From Synechococcus sp. CCY 0621 (GTDB lineage: Bacteria; Cyanobacteriota; Cyanobacteriia; PCC-6307; Cyanobiaceae), in assembly GCF_019038465.1 (NCBI RefSeq), contig NZ_JAFKRH010000038.1:1-64000 (forward strand): a stretch of DNA of 64,000 nt, read 5' to 3'. Made by a program: the position numbers and the translations under genes. Shown in pieces: positions 2,292 to 13,086 of this stretch; position 1 is the stretch's first letter; every line of letters starts with the position of its first letter. The notes beneath the pieces were generated by a model that worked only from the letters and a program-made list of their open reading frames with translations, ran no database searches and had not been told where the DNA came from.

Positions 2292-3119
2292 TCAACGTCT
2301 CAGGCGTTTTCTGAGCCGGCGGCTAAAGCCGAAGGCAGCGGCAGCTCCCAGGACCGGCAGGGGGCCGGGGACAGTGGCGGTGCCAGGGACGGGGGACGGA
2401 TCCGTGGTGGTCGGTGGCTGCGGCGGCGGGGGAGGGGGGGTGGCAATGAAGGGGGAGGCAGCGGCCCAGACGTTGGGGAAGCGTTCAATGAACCCCGAAG
2501 CTGCTGTTCCTGCGGGATCGAATCTCCCGGTCGCATCGTCGTCACGGGTCGTGAATGTGGTGCATACTCCGCCGAATGTGGGATCGGTCGATCCGTCGCA
2601 GTTCCGCACCGGAACGCCCGAAGGACCTCGTAAGGATGCGAACTGAATCGAGTAGGCCCCCGATGGACCGGCGTTTTGGCAACCGGTGAAGGGGTTGCAA
2701 TTGATCAGAAGAGGGATGGATTCTCTTCCCCACGCGAACCAAGGCCCCATCGGAATATTGGTGCCCGCAAAGCCCAAAGGTACGAATTGATCGTTGGGGA
2801 AGCCGAGGGCGGAGCCCACCAGCGCTGCGGCCGTTCGAGCGAGATCGCGGCTTCCCCACCAGAAACCAGGGGAATCATTGCCGCTGGAGGGGCTTGGGAA
2901 GCCATTCCGGAAACTGCCTTGAACAGTTTTGATCAGGTAGGTCGTGCCACTGAAGTCGATCAGGCAGGACGGGACGACCGACGTGGCGCTGCTGCATGGG
3001 GCGGGGGCCAGCTGGGCCTGTGCAGGAGCCGGGGCAAGAAGCGGTAAGGCGGCTGTGCAGAGACCGGCCAGCAGAACCGGGGCTGCCTGGTGCAGCAATC
3101 TACTGGAGAACAGATACAT
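2292..3119 (-). CDS. Secreted protein with PEP-CTERM-like C-terminal sorting signal
   Basis: A 275-residue exported protein. Residues 1-36 form a signal peptide with hydrophobic core and an AQA-type cleavage site. The body contains six or more cysteines and a Pro-rich linker (PPPPPPQPP, near 225). The last 25 residues have PGPLPVLG, then the hydrophobic AAAAFGF and a basic tail (SRRLRKRLRR). That tripartite end is the layout of PEP-CTERM signals in the form seen in cyanobacteria, which exosortase-type enzymes recognise and process. No exosortase lies in this window. The gene upstream in coordinate order (3310-4044) encodes an HpsJ-like protein, a family associated with cyanoexosortase systems. 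The substrate-binding role of the body is unknown. Confidence 0.75.
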   Translation of the reverse strand: MYLFSSRLLHQAAPVLLAGLCTAALPLLAPAPAQAQLAPAPCSSATSVVPSCLIDFSGTTYLIKTVQGSFRNGFPSPSSGNDSPGFWWGSRDLARTAAALVGSALGFPNDQFVPLGFAGTNIPMGPWFAWGRESIPLLINCNPFTGCQNAGPSGAYSIQFASLRGPSGVPVRNCDGSTDPTFGGVCTTFTTRDDDATGRFDPAGTAASGFIERFPNVWAAASPFIATPPPPPPQPPTTTDPSPVPGTATVPGPLPVLGAAAAFGFSRRLRKRLRR

Positions 3120-4115: not shown

Positions 4116-4196
4116 GGCGGCGGAGAGGTTCTCGCTGGGTCTCTCCTGGTCGTCGCTGGTGTCGACAGTTGGCTTCTGCCAGCTGGGCGGAATCCT
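4116..4196 (-). repeat. Damaged second copy of the DUF4079 gene 3' end
   Basis: This stretch matches 5101-5171, the 3' end of the DUF4079 gene, as an imperfect direct repeat: 18 of 20 bases at one end, then roughly 50 well-matched bases, with a 10-base insertion at 4136-4145. Read on the minus strand it still encodes the SWQKPT motif found near the DUF4079 C-terminus, but has no gene body before it. The two repeats bracket the cyclodipeptide synthase gene. Confidence 0.75.
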
Positions 4197-4212: not shown

Positions 4213-5091
4213 TTATGCAGCCTCGCGGCTCTTCGAGCAGACCGGTTCCGTCAGCTCGTGAACTATCACAAAGTGTTGCCCAGGCGACGGACCGATCGAG
4301 AAGTCACCCGAGAAGATCCTCTCGAACAATCGAAGCGAGCGGTGGTAAACAAACGTCGAGGTTTGTACTCCGAATAGCTCAGGTCCGTTGAGGATGAGTG
4401 GCAGCTCTGCCATCAGATAATCGACCGCGCCCAAGCGCTGCCCATGGCTCGGTTCATGACCCTCTCGCCGCCGATTCTGAAGAACGTCGTCCGTTGCTGC
4501 CAGGCACTCCTGTTGAAACTCCTTGTCGGTGGCGAAGGCGTTGCGGAAGCGCTGTTCAGATGCGGCATAACGATCGAGCCGCGCCACCTGACTCCATGGA
4601 AACAGCCGAAGACGCTTGTCGACAGTCTCAACCGCCTCGCGAGCTCGATCAATCTTGTTGTTGAGGTAGCGTACTTGTCGCCTGGTCTTATGGGAGGCCT
4701 CTCCGGTGGTATAGCCGCCAGCCTCCAATGTCCACACCGTTGGGGTGTCGGGAATGAACACATCGACGCGATCGAAGTGTTCGTTGGCCCAGGCCAGCAA
4801 CTCGGTGAGTCGAGCCTCGCTGTAATAACTATTGAATGGGCTCGTCCCGACCACAACATGGCAGCGCTCGCCGCGATCGGGTAAGCATCGAGACAGATTG
4901 GACAGGTTGCGATGAAGGTTCGCGTTGCCGTAGGAGCTGAAGATGCACCCCTCACCGGGGCGCGGACGGATGACGACGCCGCAGCCGGGGCACGTATGGG
5001 ACAAGATGCAGGCCGAAGTATCGATGCTCGTTGCGATGCGGGTGCTGCATTGGGGACAGACCAACTCCACTGTTAAAGGGCTCCAGGTCAT
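4213..5091 (-). CDS. tRNA-dependent cyclodipeptide synthase with N-terminal zinc-ribbon-like domain
   Basis: A 292-residue protein. Residues 75-292 form a complete cyclodipeptide synthase (CDPS), which takes aminoacyl groups from two charged tRNAs and makes a cyclic dipeptide. The nucleophile lies in GTSPFN (Ser84), with Asn87. Tyr225 and Glu229 follow in DYLMAE, and Tyr249-His250 in FVYHR. The spacings 84-225 (141) and 225-249 (24) equal those of AlbC Ser37, Tyr178 and Tyr202, and Asn/Tyr/His places it in the NYH subfamily. Basic helix residues 135-151 fit tRNA binding. Residues 8-55 are an extra domain with CPQC (12-15), Cys28, CPGC (34-37) and GEGCIFSSYG (46-55), close to the GDCCVxC family but with two signature cysteines changed. 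The ATG at 5091 overlaps the DUF4079 stop by four bases, which fixes the start. The product's amino acids cannot be predicted here. Confidence 0.88.
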   Translation of the reverse strand: MTWSPLTVELVCPQCSTRIATSIDTSACILSHTCPGCGVVIRPRPGEGCIFSSYGNANLHRNLSNLSRCLPDRGERCHVVVGTSPFNSYYSEARLTELLAWANEHFDRVDVFIPDTPTVWTLEAGGYTTGEASHKTRRQVRYLNNKIDRAREAVETVDKRLRLFPWSQVARLDRYAASEQRFRNAFATDKEFQQECLAATDDVLQNRRREGHEPSHGQRLGAVDYLMAELPLILNGPELFGVQTSTFVYHRSLRLFERIFSGDFSIGPSPGQHFVIVHELTEPVCSKSREAA

Positions 5092-5789
5092 CGGAGCGCC
5101 GGCGGCGGACACGTTCTCGCCTGGTAGTCGCAGGCGTAGATCGTCGGCTTCTGCCAGCTGAGCGGGATCTCCAATAGATCCCGGGGGCCGCTGATCCCCT
5201 GGGCCAGGAAGAGCAAAGCCGCCAGGGCGTTGGCGCTGACATGCAGCCGGCGCCAACGCAGGTGCTTGTGGATCTCCGGCCGGCAGGCCACGGAGAACAG
5301 CATCAGGCCAGTGAGCCCGATGCCGCCCCAGAAGTGCGACTGCCAGAAGGCAGGCTCAAACGGGTTGTCGCTGAGCCGGAACACCTCCGGCTGCAGCCCC
5401 AAGGCAATCACCCCCGCCCAGCAGAGCAGGGCGAAGCTGGCCCGGTAGATGGGCTGTTTGACCCGCCAGAGGGCCGCCAGGGCGATCCCCGATCCCAACA
5501 GCACCAAAAGCAACAGTCCCAGCCGCAGTGCGCCCCCCTCAAAGGCCGTAAGGGGATGCTTGGTGACGATGACCACCGCTTCGGCGATCAGCACGATCGC
5601 CACCACCGAACCCGCCAGCAGCTTGCCGAGATCGGCATGGTCACGGCCCACTGTGGAGGGATGCTTGGCCTGGTTGAGGCGGCGATCCCGGGTCTGCAGT
5701 CCCAGCCGCAAGACCATGCCCAGCAAGGGGTAGACCAGCACCACGGCCAGGGCCGGATGGAGCAGCCAGAGCCAGTCGACGGTCTGCAT
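5088..5789 (-). CDS. DUF4079 family membrane protein, b561-like
   Basis: A 233-residue integral membrane protein with about six hydrophobic helices. Histidines sit in conserved contexts: LHPALA near residue 11, RDHADLG near 51, QSHFWGG near 152 and RLHVSANALA near 183. Four such histidines in helices suggest bis-histidine haem coordination as in cytochrome b561-type transmembrane electron carriers, which is how I read DUF4079. The start lies four bases after the DM13 gene stop and the end overlaps the CDPS start (ATGA), so the three genes are one transcription unit. The C-terminal tail has two cysteines (ACDYQARTC). A damaged copy of its 3' end lies at 4116-4196. Confidence 0.75.
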   Translation of the reverse strand: MQTVDWLWLLHPALAVVLVYPLLGMVLRLGLQTRDRRLNQAKHPSTVGRDHADLGKLLAGSVVAIVLIAEAVVIVTKHPLTAFEGGALRLGLLLLVLLGSGIALAALWRVKQPIYRASFALLCWAGVIALGLQPEVFRLSDNPFEPAFWQSHFWGGIGLTGLMLFSVACRPEIHKHLRWRRLHVSANALAALLFLAQGISGPRDLLEIPLSWQKPTIYACDYQARTCPPPALR

Positions 5790-5792
5790 GGC

Positions 5793-6257
5793 TCAGGGCT
5801 TCAGGGGGGCCCAGGCCATCGTGGCGTTGAACGCCTCGCACCAGATCATCACCGACCCTTGCTGGCTGAGGTCGATCGAGGCGGGGATCACATAGCTCTG
5901 GGCACCGGAGGCGGATTTGAGCGGCGCAAGGATCGTGTAGCTGCCGGCCTTGAGCGGAAAGCTGGGGGCCTTGGTGCTTGCCAGGGGCGTTGCCGATGGG
6001 CTGAAAATCACCTTCAGGTCGGGGGCCGTCTCCTTGGTCTTGAAATCGCTGCTCAGCACCAGCAACTGCTTCCCGGCTTTCTGGATGATGGTGAAGCTGC
6101 CGTTGACGGGAGCCTCGGCCATGCGGAAGCTCTGCATGGCCAGGGGCGCCGCCTGGGCGATCACCACGGGGACGGGAGCCTTCATGGTTTCGGCCTGCCC
6201 TGGAGCAGCGGCGCTGCCGAGGAGTGTGAGGGTCAGGGCTCCTACAAGGGACTTCAT
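5793..6257 (-). CDS. Exported DM13 domain protein
   Basis: A 154-residue protein with an N-terminal signal peptide (about residues 1-23, cleavage near GQA). I chose the ATG at 6257 because the longer frame starts with TTG and places ten polar residues before the signal. Residues 45-154 match the DM13 domain: the start GSFTIIQKAG, the central AGSYTILAPL and the hallmark end VMIWCEAFNATMAWAPL with its near-invariant cysteine. DM13 domains are proposed to take part in electron transfer or redox sensing outside the cytoplasm, often beside b561-like or DOMON proteins. That fits the adjacent DUF4079 gene, whose start is only four bases from this stop. Confidence 0.75.
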   Translation of the reverse strand: MKSLVGALTLTLLGSAAAPGQAETMKAPVPVVIAQAAPLAMQSFRMAEAPVNGSFTIIQKAGKQLLVLSSDFKTKETAPDLKVIFSPSATPLASTKAPSFPLKAGSYTILAPLKSASGAQSYVIPASIDLSQQGSVMIWCEAFNATMAWAPLKP

Positions 6258-6559
6258 CACGAATGCATCAAGGGGGAAGTGGCGCAAGCTGGGATTCCTG
6301 TCGGATCAGCTCAGGCTTGCCGTACTTACCCGTGAGCTGCTCGATCGGTTTGCGCCATCATCAGGCTTGACCTCCCTGGCGGCTCCCCCGAGGCCGTCGC
6401 GTGCAACCGCAACCCCTGGCTCTTGGCGACAGCGTCGCCCGGGAAATACGAACAATGGCTACCGTCATGCCCTAAACGTTCATGCCTGGGGATTGGCATA
6501 GAGTTGGCATCCGCTTTTGTTCCAGCGTCAGCCATTCCTCTTCACACCGGGGATTTGCC

Positions 6560-9893: not shown

Positions 9894-10318
9894 TCAGCCG
9901 CCCCGCAGCACCGCGCTGAGCAAGGAGAGGTTGATCATCACAATCACGCTGGCGCACAGCCAGCCTGCTGCCTGAAGCCAGAGCGGTGCTCTGAGCTCGC
10001 CCATCAGGCCCCGCCGACCTCCTCGCAGCAACGGCATCAGGGCCAGCAGGAGCACCGTGCCGTGGCCAGGAATCCAAACAGAGAAAGCGGCTGGCCCAGC
10101 AGCGTGCCCCAGGCGCTGCCGAGCACCTTGTCGCAGCCATCGCTACCGCCCGGACAGGACAGGCTGCCGATCCAACCCCAGCGATTGGCGGTGATCGAGC
10201 CGGTGTCGATCATGCCGATCGTGGCGAGCACGGCCATGGCGAGGCGCACCCAGGGCCGGCCTGGCTCCTGGGCGGCCCGACGGCTGGAGAGCGGATTGGT
10301 TCGCGTAGCGCTGCTCAC
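9894..10318 (-). pseudogene. Frameshifted vitamin K epoxide reductase (VKOR) gene
   Basis: From a GTG at 10318 the frame encodes a VKOR-like N-terminus: a helix (LAMAVLATIGMIDTGSIT), then LSCPGGSDGCDKVLGSAWG with the two cysteines of the first redox pair, then GQPLSLFGFLA. A frameshift near 10070 moves the remainder into another frame, which reads VLLLALMPLLRGG and VIVMINLSLLSAVLRGG to a TGA at 9894. The CxxC active-site helix expected further on is not seen. VKOR proteins reoxidise DsbA-like partners in oxidative protein folding. The gene lies downstream of the MerR-type operator at 10356-10377 and divergent from the regulator. Confidence 0.65.
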
Positions 10319-10377: not shown

Positions 10378-10439
10378 GGGCCTAGCGTTGCGCCTGGGAG
10401 GCTTGTCCGCCCGACTTGCCAACCCAGGGGGATGAATCC

Positions 10440-10856
10440 ATGCAGATCGGCGAGTTGGCACGGTCCACCGGGGTCAAGATCGAAACCATCCGCTATTACG
10501 AACGCGAGCAGTTGTTGCCGGTGCCGCAGCGCACGGATGGCAACTATCGCCTCTATTCGCCGCGGCATGTGGAGCAGTTGCGTTTCATCCGCTACTGCCG
10601 CAGCCTTGACATGAGCCTGGAGGAGGTCCGCATCCTGATCGGGGTGCTCGACACACCGTCCGGAAGCTGTCAGACGGTGAATGCCCTGCTGGACGAGAAG
10701 ATCGTCGAGGTCGATGCCCGCGTGAATGAGTTGCACAAACTCCAGGATCAGCTACGGCAGCTCAGAGGGCATTGTCAGCAACCGGATGAGGTGAAGACCT
10801 GTGGCATCCTCATGGAGTTGAACCGTTCGGCTGGAATCGATAAGGCTCAGATCTGA
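10440..10856 (+). CDS. MerR-family heavy-metal-responsive regulator (CadR/PbrR type)
   Basis: A 138-residue DNA-binding regulator. The start at 10440 gives the canonical N-terminus MQIGELARSTGVKIETIRYY, a winged helix-turn-helix, followed by NYRLYSPRHVEQLRFI. A dimerisation helix covers about residues 80-115. Metal ligands are likely Cys79 (GSCQTVN), Cys113 (GHCQQ) and Cys120 (KTCGIL), a set typical of Cd/Pb/Zn-responsive members. Two MerR-type operators lie nearby: one in front of the divergent VKOR gene, one in front of the convergently placed P-type ATPase. So it most likely activates metal efflux when the metal binds. Confidence 0.85.
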   Translation: MQIGELARSTGVKIETIRYYEREQLLPVPQRTDGNYRLYSPRHVEQLRFIRYCRSLDMSLEEVRILIGVLDTPSGSCQTVNALLDEKIVEVDARVNELHKLQDQLRQLRGHCQQPDEVKTCGILMELNRSAGIDKAQI

Positions 10857-10872: not shown

Positions 10873-13086
10873 TCAACCCTTGATCTTGCCAAACGTGGGA
10901 GTGCGAAGCAGCCGCAGGCCATTGGCGATCACGATCAGGCTGGTGCCCATGTCCGCGAAGACCGCCATCCACATCGTGGCATTTCCGGCCACGGTGAGCA
11001 CCAGAAAAATGGCCTTGATTCCCAGCGCCAGCGCGATGTTCTGGCGCAGGATTCGAAAGGTGCGTCGGGAGAGGGCGATCGTTTCCGGTACGCGCATCAG
11101 ATCGTCGTTCATGATCACCACGTCGGCGGCTTCAATAGCGATATGGGTGCCCGCGGCCCCCATCGCGAAACCGATGTCCGCCTGGGCCAGGGCCGGGGCA
11201 TCGTTGATGCCATCGCCAGCCATGGCCGCGAATCCATAGCGGGCCTGCAGATCGGCCACCGCCTCGAGCTTGTCCTGCGGCAGCAGGTTGCTTTTCAACT
11301 GCTCGATGCCGGCCACGGCCGCGATCGCACCGGCGGTGGCTGCGTTGTCACCCGTGAGCATCACCGGGGTGACGCCGAGGGCCCGCAGGGCGGCCATGGC
11401 CGCCGCCGAGCTGGGCCGAACGGTGTCGGCGACGGCGATCAGGGCGAGCACGCCGCTGTCATCCGCCAGCAGGCTGAGGGAGCGGCCCTGGCGCTCGTGG
11501 ACCTGCATCGATGCTTCCAGTGCGCTGGAGCAGAGTCCCAGCTCCTCGATCCAGCGGTGGTTGGCCAGCATCAGCGGCCGCCCCGCGATCACGCCGCGCA
11601 CCCCCCTTCCGGGGAGGGCCTCGAAGGCCTCCACGGCCAGCCGCTCGCCATCAAGGCCTGACGCCATGGCCCGCGACACCGGATGGTCGGAGCGCTCCGC
11701 CAGGCTGCTGGCCCACTGCTTGAGAGTTCCAGCGTCTGCCCCTTCTTGCCGTGGGGAGAAGGCCACCAGCTGGGGCTGGCCCAGGGTGATCGTGCCGGTC
11801 TTGTCGAGGGCCAGCACCTTGATCTTGCGGGCCTCCTCGAGGTACAGGCCGCCTTTGATGATGATGCCGCGGCGGGCGGCGGTGGCCAGGCCGCTCACCA
11901 CCGTGACCGGTGTGGCGATCACCAGCGCACAGGGACAGGCGATCACCAGCAGCACCAGGGCCTTGTAGATCGCCTGCATGGGGGTGAATCCCAGCAAGGG
12001 CGGCGCCAGCAGGGCAACGGCCAGGGCCACCACAAACACCGCCGGGGTGTAGCGGGCCGCGAAGCGATCGACGAAGCGCTGGATCGGGGCACGGGAGGCC
12101 TGGGCTTCCTCCACGGCCTGGATGATGCGCGCCAGGGTGCTGAGCGAGGCAGGTGCCGTCACCTGGATCTCGAGTGCGCCGCCCTGGTTGATCGTGCCCG
12201 CAAACACTTCATCACCAGGGCCTTTGTCAACCGGCAGGCTTTCGCCGGTGATCGGGGCCTGGTTGATCGCACTCTCGCCGCTGAGCACCGTGCCATCAAG
12301 CGGCAGCCGTTCCCCCGGGCGGACCCGCGCCACATCTCCGATGGCCACGGCACTGGCGGCCACGCGTTGCCAGCGGCCATCGCTCTGGCGGATCTCCGCC
12401 TCATCGGGGGCCAGGGCCATCAGGCTGGTGATCGCCTGGCGGGCCCGCTGCACGGCCCGCGCTTCAATCGCCTCAGCCACGGCATAGAGCGCCATCACCA
12501 TGGCGGCCTCCGGGAAGCGGCCGATCAGGAAGGCGCCCGTGACCGCCACGCTCATCAACGCATTGATGTTGAGCCGGCCCTGGCGCAGGGCGGCCAGGCC
12601 CTTGCGAAACACGGAGAAGCCCGCCAGGGCGATCGCGGTGATGGCGATCCCGATCTCCACCAGCTCATGGCCCGGGTAGGCGGGAACGACCAGATGCAGC
12701 AGCTCCGCCGTGAGCGCCAGTGCCAGGGAGCCCGCCAGACGGAGCCGTTCAAGGCGCCGTTCGGCGCGGGTCTGGGCGGCAGAAGGCCGGTGATCGGAGC
12801 TGATCGGCTCAGGGTTGAATCCCAGCCGGCGGATTGCGGCAAGGGCGGAGTTGAGCCCTGCGGCTTCGGCATCGATCGCCAGAACGCGCTCGGCCAGCAG
12901 GAACCTCAGGCCGCGGATGCCGTCGACACCTGCGAGGGCATGGCGGATCTCGGTTTCTTCGGTGGCGCAATCCATGGCGCTGATCCGAAACCGCGCTTCT
13001 CTGGCGCATGCCAGCTCCGGCTGCGGCTCCATGGTGGCTCCAGCGTTCTGCCCGCTGGTTCCGGTGTTGCAGCAATGTTCCGCCAT
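10873..13086 (-). CDS. Heavy-metal P1B-type ATPase (Cd/Zn/Pb export)
   Basis: A 737-residue membrane pump. It starts with a Cys-containing leader (residues 1-25: HCC, then ELACA) and an HMA-like metal-binding domain with MDCATEE (Cys40), the variant seen in ZntA/CadA-type proteins. Eight transmembrane helices are expected. The ion path motif IACPCAL lies near residue 384. The phosphorylated aspartate is in DKTGT near 429. TGES occurs in the actuator domain and GDGINDAP in the hinge. The CPC motif with an HMA of this type points to Zn/Cd/Pb. Its promoter region contains a MerR-type operator at 13116-13137 almost identical to that in front of the regulator, so it is the probable main target of the MerR protein at 10440. 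The 3' end converges on merR with 16 bases between the genes. Confidence 0.92.
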   Translation of the reverse strand: MAEHCCNTGTSGQNAGATMEPQPELACAREARFRISAMDCATEETEIRHALAGVDGIRGLRFLLAERVLAIDAEAAGLNSALAAIRRLGFNPEPISSDHRPSAAQTRAERRLERLRLAGSLALALTAELLHLVVPAYPGHELVEIGIAITAIALAGFSVFRKGLAALRQGRLNINALMSVAVTGAFLIGRFPEAAMVMALYAVAEAIEARAVQRARQAITSLMALAPDEAEIRQSDGRWQRVAASAVAIGDVARVRPGERLPLDGTVLSGESAINQAPITGESLPVDKGPGDEVFAGTINQGGALEIQVTAPASLSTLARIIQAVEEAQASRAPIQRFVDRFAARYTPAVFVVALAVALLAPPLLGFTPMQAIYKALVLLVIACPCALVIATPVTVVSGLATAARRGIIIKGGLYLEEARKIKVLALDKTGTITLGQPQLVAFSPRQEGADAGTLKQWASSLAERSDHPVSRAMASGLDGERLAVEAFEALPGRGVRGVIAGRPLMLANHRWIEELGLCSSALEASMQVHERQGRSLSLLADDSGVLALIAVADTVRPSSAAAMAALRALGVTPVMLTGDNAATAGAIAAVAGIEQLKSNLLPQDKLEAVADLQARYGFAAMAGDGINDAPALAQADIGFAMGAAGTHIAIEAADVVIMNDDLMRVPETIALSRRTFRILRQNIALALGIKAIFLVLTVAGNATMWMAVFADMGTSLIVIANGLRLLRTPTFGKIKG

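Follow-up and report, generated by a model that had tools for sequence, protein, structure and literature searches.

A cyclodipeptide synthase fused to a GDCCVxC-derived domain in Synechococcus sp. CCY 0621 and its relatives in metal-resistance loci

Organization of the fusion gene and its two domains

The small freshwater cyanobacterium Synechococcus sp. CCY 0621 harbors a gene in which a cyclodipeptide synthase (CDPS) is fused C-terminal to a domain of a metal-trafficking type. The gene is found in the window, by which the whole analyzed stretch of 64,000 nucleotides (contig NZ_JAFKRH010000038.1, positions 1 to 64,000) is denoted here, as the last member of a DM13-DUF4079-fusion run on the reverse strand (Table 1). 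Open reading frame, strand and coordinates had been given correctly in the original prediction, which was made from the letters of the DNA and a list of its open reading frames. The start codon is well supported, because its ATG overlaps the stop codon of the DUF4079 gene (ATGA) and because the fusions of other genomes begin with M-E/T at the corresponding site. This overlap suggests that DUF4079 and the fusion may be translationally coupled.

Table 1. Position of the fusion gene, its domains and functional residues, the neighboring features of the window, and the related Streptomyces operon.
Feature	Position	Strand	Basis or remark
GDCCVxC-derived domain / cyclodipeptide synthase fusion	4213..5091	-	292 aa; ATG at 5091, stop 4215-4213
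N-terminal GDCCVxC-homologous domain, residues 9-57	4921..5067	-	NF041374 match; same stretch found in genome search
First CxxC, residues 12-15	5047..5058	-	invariant in 6/6 fusions
Second CxxC, residues 34-37	4981..4992	-	invariant in 6/6 fusions
GEGCIFSS, residues 46-53, replacing GDCCVFCS	4933..4956	-	[GA][ED]GC[IV]FSS in 6/6 fusions
NYH-type CDPS catalytic domain, residues 75-278	4258..4869	-	PF16715, TIGR04539, PDB matches AlbC and YvmC
Ser84, nucleophile, equivalent to AlbC S37	4840..4842	-	AlbC alignment
Asn87, equivalent to AlbC N40, N of NYH	4831..4833	-	AlbC alignment
Tyr225, equivalent to AlbC Y178	4417..4419	-	AlbC alignment
Glu229, equivalent to AlbC E182	4405..4407	-	AlbC alignment
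Tyr249-His250, equivalent to AlbC Y202-H203, YH of NYH	4342..4347	-	AlbC alignment
DUF4079 membrane protein	5088..5789	-	PF13301 113 bits; stop overlaps fusion start (ATGA)
DM13 (predicted electron-transfer) protein, first of the DM13-DUF4079-fusion run	5793..6287	-	PF10517 71 bits
79-nt partial duplicate of DUF4079 3' end (cf. 5101-5169), downstream of fusion	4116..4194		sequence comparison
MerR-family regulator of nearby metal module, 5.3 kb from fusion	10416..10856	+	PF13411 78 bits
P1B-type heavy-metal ATPase of nearby metal module	10873..13086	-	PF00122 182 bits; CPC motif in translation
MerR <-> CDPS-P1B-ATPase operon of Streptomyces plasmids	L070:4953-7873 (also L071, L072)		

Residues 75-278 match the CDPS profiles far above the curated cut-offs, with 203.6 bits in the Pfam search (PF16715, cut-off 27) and 219.2 bits in the NCBIfam search (TIGR04539, cut-off 45), and the solved CDPSs YvmC (1.1e-24) and AlbC (2e-24) are matched by phmmer. 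In the alignment with AlbC a constant offset of 47 is kept at all six catalytic and signature residues; each residue named in the original prediction falls on its AlbC equivalent, and the AlbC-like spacings of 141 and 24 that it reported are exact. S84, N87, Y225, E229, Y249 and H250 are invariant in all four intact fusions. With regard to the Rossmann (class-I aaRS-like) fold of the family, the top Foldseek matches of the low-confidence model of the fusion (pLDDT 52.7) are all CDPSs, with AlbC in first place (E 3.4e-11, probability 1.00, TM 0.44). Profiles and signature residues identify residues 75-278 as a cyclodipeptide synthase, as had been predicted, and assign it to the NYH type. The fusion has its domain, catalytic residues and spacing in common with the NYH enzymes AlbC and YvmC, and differs from them by its N-terminal metal-type domain. 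The 2018 survey of the CDPS family (PMC5816076) contains C-terminal fusions only (to a methyltransferase, P450 or ABC transporter), with an additional domain at the C-terminus of the Legionellaceae enzymes; an N-terminal metal-type domain does not occur in it. Actinobacteria, Firmicutes and Proteobacteria account for more than 99% of its NYH enzymes. The cyanobacterial CDPS assayed there, an XYP enzyme from Lyngbya, was inactive.

The N-terminal segment (residues 9-57) matches the GDCCVxC profile NF041374 with 51.7 bits when the N-terminus is searched alone and with 47.6 bits within the whole protein, the curated cut-off being 40; the fusions of the genomes G004, G033 and G007 are above this cut-off as well. 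Pfam zinc-ribbon models gave no significant match to the domain (best 18.3 bits, cut-off 27.6), and a plain Pfam zinc-ribbon assignment was therefore discarded. On the strength of the profile match the N-domain is a genuine GDCCVxC homologue, which places the first 57 residues in the family whose resemblance had been noted, with two signature cysteines replaced exactly as claimed. Neither of the two outcomes that had been named as refuting the original prediction was observed. The standalone GDCCVxC (seleno)proteins examined share both CxxC pairs and the PxPG...FxSYG frame with the fusion N-domain, but are only about 70-85 amino acids long and read GDCCVFCSYG, as in a standalone cyanobacterial member, where the enzyme-linked domain reads GEGCIFSSYG. 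Thus, the first cysteine of the CC pair and that of VxC are lost in the fusion. The eponymous signature is absent from the window copy, which has GEGCIFS instead ([GA][ED]GC[IV]FS in all six fusions), and the domain is therefore filed as a derived homologous domain rather than as a canonical GDCCVxC protein. The N-terminal cysteine pattern described earlier holds in the window copy; its Cys28, however, is inconstant within the fusion family, being replaced by Leu in G033 and by Phe in G007.

Between the fusion copies, dN/dS (Nei-Gojobori) amounts to 0.11-0.71 for the N-domain, with most pairs below 0.4, and to 0.04-0.30 for the CDPS domain; purifying selection thus acts on both. Since the low dN/dS is accompanied by CxxC pairs and an altered motif present in six of six copies, the N-domain appears to be maintained in a specialized form and not to be vestigial; its recurrence in six genomes and the selection acting on it disfavor the remnant that had been offered as one option for it. 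In the AlphaFold model of the fusion the N-domain is not resolved (pLDDT 24-44), hence no claim is made on domain placement.

Distribution and neighborhoods of the fusion in Cyanobiaceae

A search of cyanobacterial genomes for the same fusion had been proposed, and in the fusion-profile search it recurs in six of 400 Cyanobiaceae genomes, the N-domain being present in all copies. Four of these are intact, namely those of the window, G004, G033 (locus L013) and Cyanobium T1B-Tous (locus L012, taken as G597 because the coordinates agree). In the G491 copy the gene is interrupted by an IS3-type transposase (L029:8789-9595), and the copy of G007 (locus L014) is broken, i.e. deleted/frameshifted. 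Occurrence in six genomes and in at least three settings rules out a chimera or assembly artifact. Apart from these, few cyanobacteria have a CDPS: in a sample of 386 genomes from across the phylum only 2 contain one, and the second of these CDPSs has no similarity to the fusion detectable by tblastn. No further fusion was found in the other cyanobacteria sampled. Two short fusion-specific peptide patterns, by which divergent fusions may be missed, were found among 84,980 species genomes in Cyanobium and cyanobacterial MAGs only. The Cyanobium isolate and the MAGs of uncultured cyanobacteria among the closest loci are consistent with the picocyanobacterial host inferred in the original prediction.

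Several origins were considered and rejected. A plasmid-borne fusion was ruled out because none of 72,556 plasmids searched has a match over 80% of the fusion, and an origin from phages or viral contigs by searches of these, which gave no match. Capture of the N-domain from a resident standalone gene was dismissed as well, as the 36 other genomes of the genus that were searched yielded no GDCCVxC gene standing alone.

The surroundings of the six copies differ. In the window and in G004 the fusion follows DM13-DUF4079 with the ATGA overlap and lies outside any metal operon. The window contains a MerR/P1B-ATPase/VKOR module about 5.3 kb off, on the opposite flank compared with T1B-Tous; in G004 no metal gene was recognized within 10 kb of the fusion. 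The gene order in T1B-Tous is YHS-type copper ATPase, DUF305, DUF411 and fusion, followed by P1B ATPase, MerR, VKOR and an Nramp-like gene, and in G033 it is DUF305, fusion, P-type ATPase and a sulfate-permease-like gene. A DUF305-like gene also adjoins the broken fusion of G007, so that DUF305 is found beside three of the six Cyanobiaceae fusion loci. The G491 copy adjoins a sulfate permease and has no adjoining metal-resistance gene. Neither a P450 nor a methyltransferase or cyclodipeptide oxidase was recognized directly beside the fusion copies. No MerR-type dyad rises above chance in the sequence preceding the cyanobacterial fusions, and the idea of such a dyad was discarded for them.

Some further features of these loci were observed. 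The partial duplicate of the DUF4079 3' end is 82-84% identical to positions 5101-5169, and G004 lacks 65 nt of it at the corresponding place. DUF4079 homologues occur in all 42 searched genomes of the genus, often in two or more copies, and G000 contains scattered DUF4079 fragments as well (contig C14). The VKOR gene of the window (9894-10318, reverse strand) looks frameshifted; its homologue in T1B-Tous (L012:10914-11867) is an intact gene to which a thioredoxin-like end is fused. A secreted-looking protein is encoded at 2292-3119 of the window (reverse strand), with the C-terminal sequence GPLPVLGAAAAFGFSRRLRKRLRR, a PEP-CTERM-like tail, and the neighborhood of the G004 copy contains a similar tail (L023:6670-7287).

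Metal-resistance context of the two halves

The original prediction missed the link to metal resistance for both halves of the protein, and this link is new relative to it. On unrelated plasmids of Pseudomonas, Enterobacter, Hydrogenophaga, Sulfitobacter, Salinibacter and Haliscomenobacter (L060, L061, L063, L064, L066, L067) a standalone GDCCVxC gene is located directly after merP, merF, merT or merTP. The Pararoseomonas gene is preceded by a cation diffusion facilitator, and those of Methylorubrum and Caulobacter have copper genes nearby; one of the standalone genes inspected, that of Thiothrix, has no metal neighbor. There (L062:3980-7205) the GDCCVxC gene overlaps a DUF4395 gene, which is followed by a thioredoxin-domain gene, and metal-transport genes are missing. 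Standalone GDCCVxC proteins are likely an accessory part of mercury transport operons, and from genomic context putative metal binding may be expected for the family. Its name, GDCCVxC, was not found in the open literature searched, and a mercury-locus context is now given to this uncharacterized family.

The closest non-fused CDPSs found are encoded on Streptomyces plasmids and are 35-39% identical to the fusion across the CDPS domain. On three of these plasmids (S. mirabilis pI, pFRL6 and S. liliifuscus) a heavy-metal MerR gene is divergent from the CDPS gene, and a heavy-metal P1B-ATPase follows approximately 20 bp after the latter. Within the gap between MerR and CDPS, next to a TTGACC box, lies ACCTTGCCCTAAGGGCAAGGT, a perfect dyad whose arms are 10 bp long and which is reached in none of 2000 shuffles. 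The CDPS of the NBC_00637 plasmid is flanked by DUF305/DUF3105 on one side and by CopY/M56/CopC genes on the other; a CDF transporter, another DUF305 and an alkylmercury lyase (MerB) are encoded nearby. As the three MerR/CDPS/ATPase operons are near-identical, the metal-locus CDPSs outside cyanobacteria count as only two independent loci. P450, methyltransferase and cyclodipeptide oxidase genes are also absent beside these nearest relatives. For plasmid pI, nickel and some copper tolerance have been demonstrated experimentally in a paper whose main text does not mention the CDPS (PMC9195940).

The Streptomyces metal-locus CDPSs (pI, pFRL6, S. liliifuscus, NBC_00637) share with the fusion a PD......T.EA.GY.PE.A..K.RRQ..Y..NKI block, a clade in the tree and metal-resistance neighbors. 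Contrary to the fusion they are single-domain proteins of 235-242 amino acids without a GDCCVxC domain. In the CDPS tree the fusions join the metal-locus CDPSs in a nine-row clade with moderate support (89/86), which includes a Legionella lytica CDPS without metal context; the P450-linked YvmC/Priestia/Staphylococcus group and AlbC are placed outside. The gene of the Legionella lytica plasmid CDPS (L076:5980-8734) overlaps a response-regulator gene, a possible signaling pair. Taken together, the nearest relatives have a strong metal link and three of the six fusions a good one, and that of the window copy is weak.

Proposed function and competing explanations

From homology, domain order, conserved residues, conservation, selection and genomic context we infer, as the best explanation, an activity, a zinc site, a docking function, a product and a role. 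On balance we incline to regard the protein as a working tRNA-dependent NYH CDPS carrying a GDCCVxC-derived N-domain, within a CDPS lineage kept in metal-resistance loci. By analogy to AlbC, whose cycle has been described (PMC5816076), the CDPS domain would transfer the aminoacyl group of a charged tRNA onto Ser84, join a second aminoacyl group and release the cyclodipeptide. The N-domain probably still holds a structural zinc ion via its two CxxC pairs, but no longer has the cysteines, vicinal and downstream, with which a soft metal would be carried. Since the CxxC pairs are kept and the extra thiols are gone, a docking or regulatory knuckle appears likelier than a metal carrier. The domain might dock to a metal-handling partner or serve as a metal or redox switch on the enzyme, and its context suggests that the cyclodipeptide may act in metal stress, e.g. 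as a ligand or signal.

A broader proposal is tentative: a metal-responsive branch of tRNA-dependent cyclodipeptide synthesis in which a MerR-controlled CDPS is cotranscribed with efflux genes, its product buffers, exports or signals soft metal, and the Cyanobiaceae fusion domain couples activity to metal status. The metal-resistance operons of the relatives hint at bacteria that make ring dipeptides on metal exposure.

The same loss of soft-metal cysteines and retention of both CxxC pairs would also suit a zinc knuckle recruited only for tRNA holding or CDPS stabilization, the metal neighborhoods being incidental because genes moved by horizontal transfer accumulate in such islands. Proteins that handle tRNA often contain zinc ribbons, e.g. 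as insertions in methionyl-tRNA synthetases (PMC2922099), and the loci of the window and G004 are not metal operons. We nevertheless consider this reading rather unlikely, as the metal context recurs independently in relatives that are not fused, where MerR-type control immediately precedes the CDPS, and as the GDCCVxC family is itself mer-linked.

CDPSs are entry enzymes of secondary metabolism, and pairing with P450s and methyltransferases is their usual biosynthetic setting. Other plasmid CDPSs are indeed paired in this manner, which is consistent with an ordinary secondary-metabolite enzyme whose signaling or antibiotic diketopiperazine is unrelated to metals. Such a role is improbable here, since none of the tailoring genes named above was recognized directly beside the fusions or their nearest relatives. 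That the fusion is a decaying hitch-hiker, i.e. a horizontally acquired gene being lost together with a vestigial N-domain, would agree with its patchy distribution and its two broken copies, but is highly improbable in view of four intact copies in which the catalytic and CxxC residues are invariant and dN/dS is low for either domain.

With regard to the preferred reading of a working CDPS in a metal-linked lineage, the fusion is a variant within a known enzyme family, and a new physiological class is a possibility. The terms 'cyclodipeptide synthase' and 'P-type ATPase' were not found together in one paper in the open literature searched (5.39 million papers). A CDPS with a mer-associated domain, whose nearest relatives reside in MerR-controlled efflux operons, suggests a physiological role absent from that literature. 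The question is thereby made testable, namely whether the cyclodipeptide is made when metals rise and whether it binds or moves metal.

The pocket motif P1 of the fusion is VGFWLIFL. A product prediction from it was not retained, as it fits no motif listed in the survey; the best agreement, 4 of 8 positions with the Cys-using cCG/cCC enzyme CDPS 102, is a lead only. In the Streptomyces metal-locus CDPSs the corresponding motif is CGF[WG]LFFP instead.
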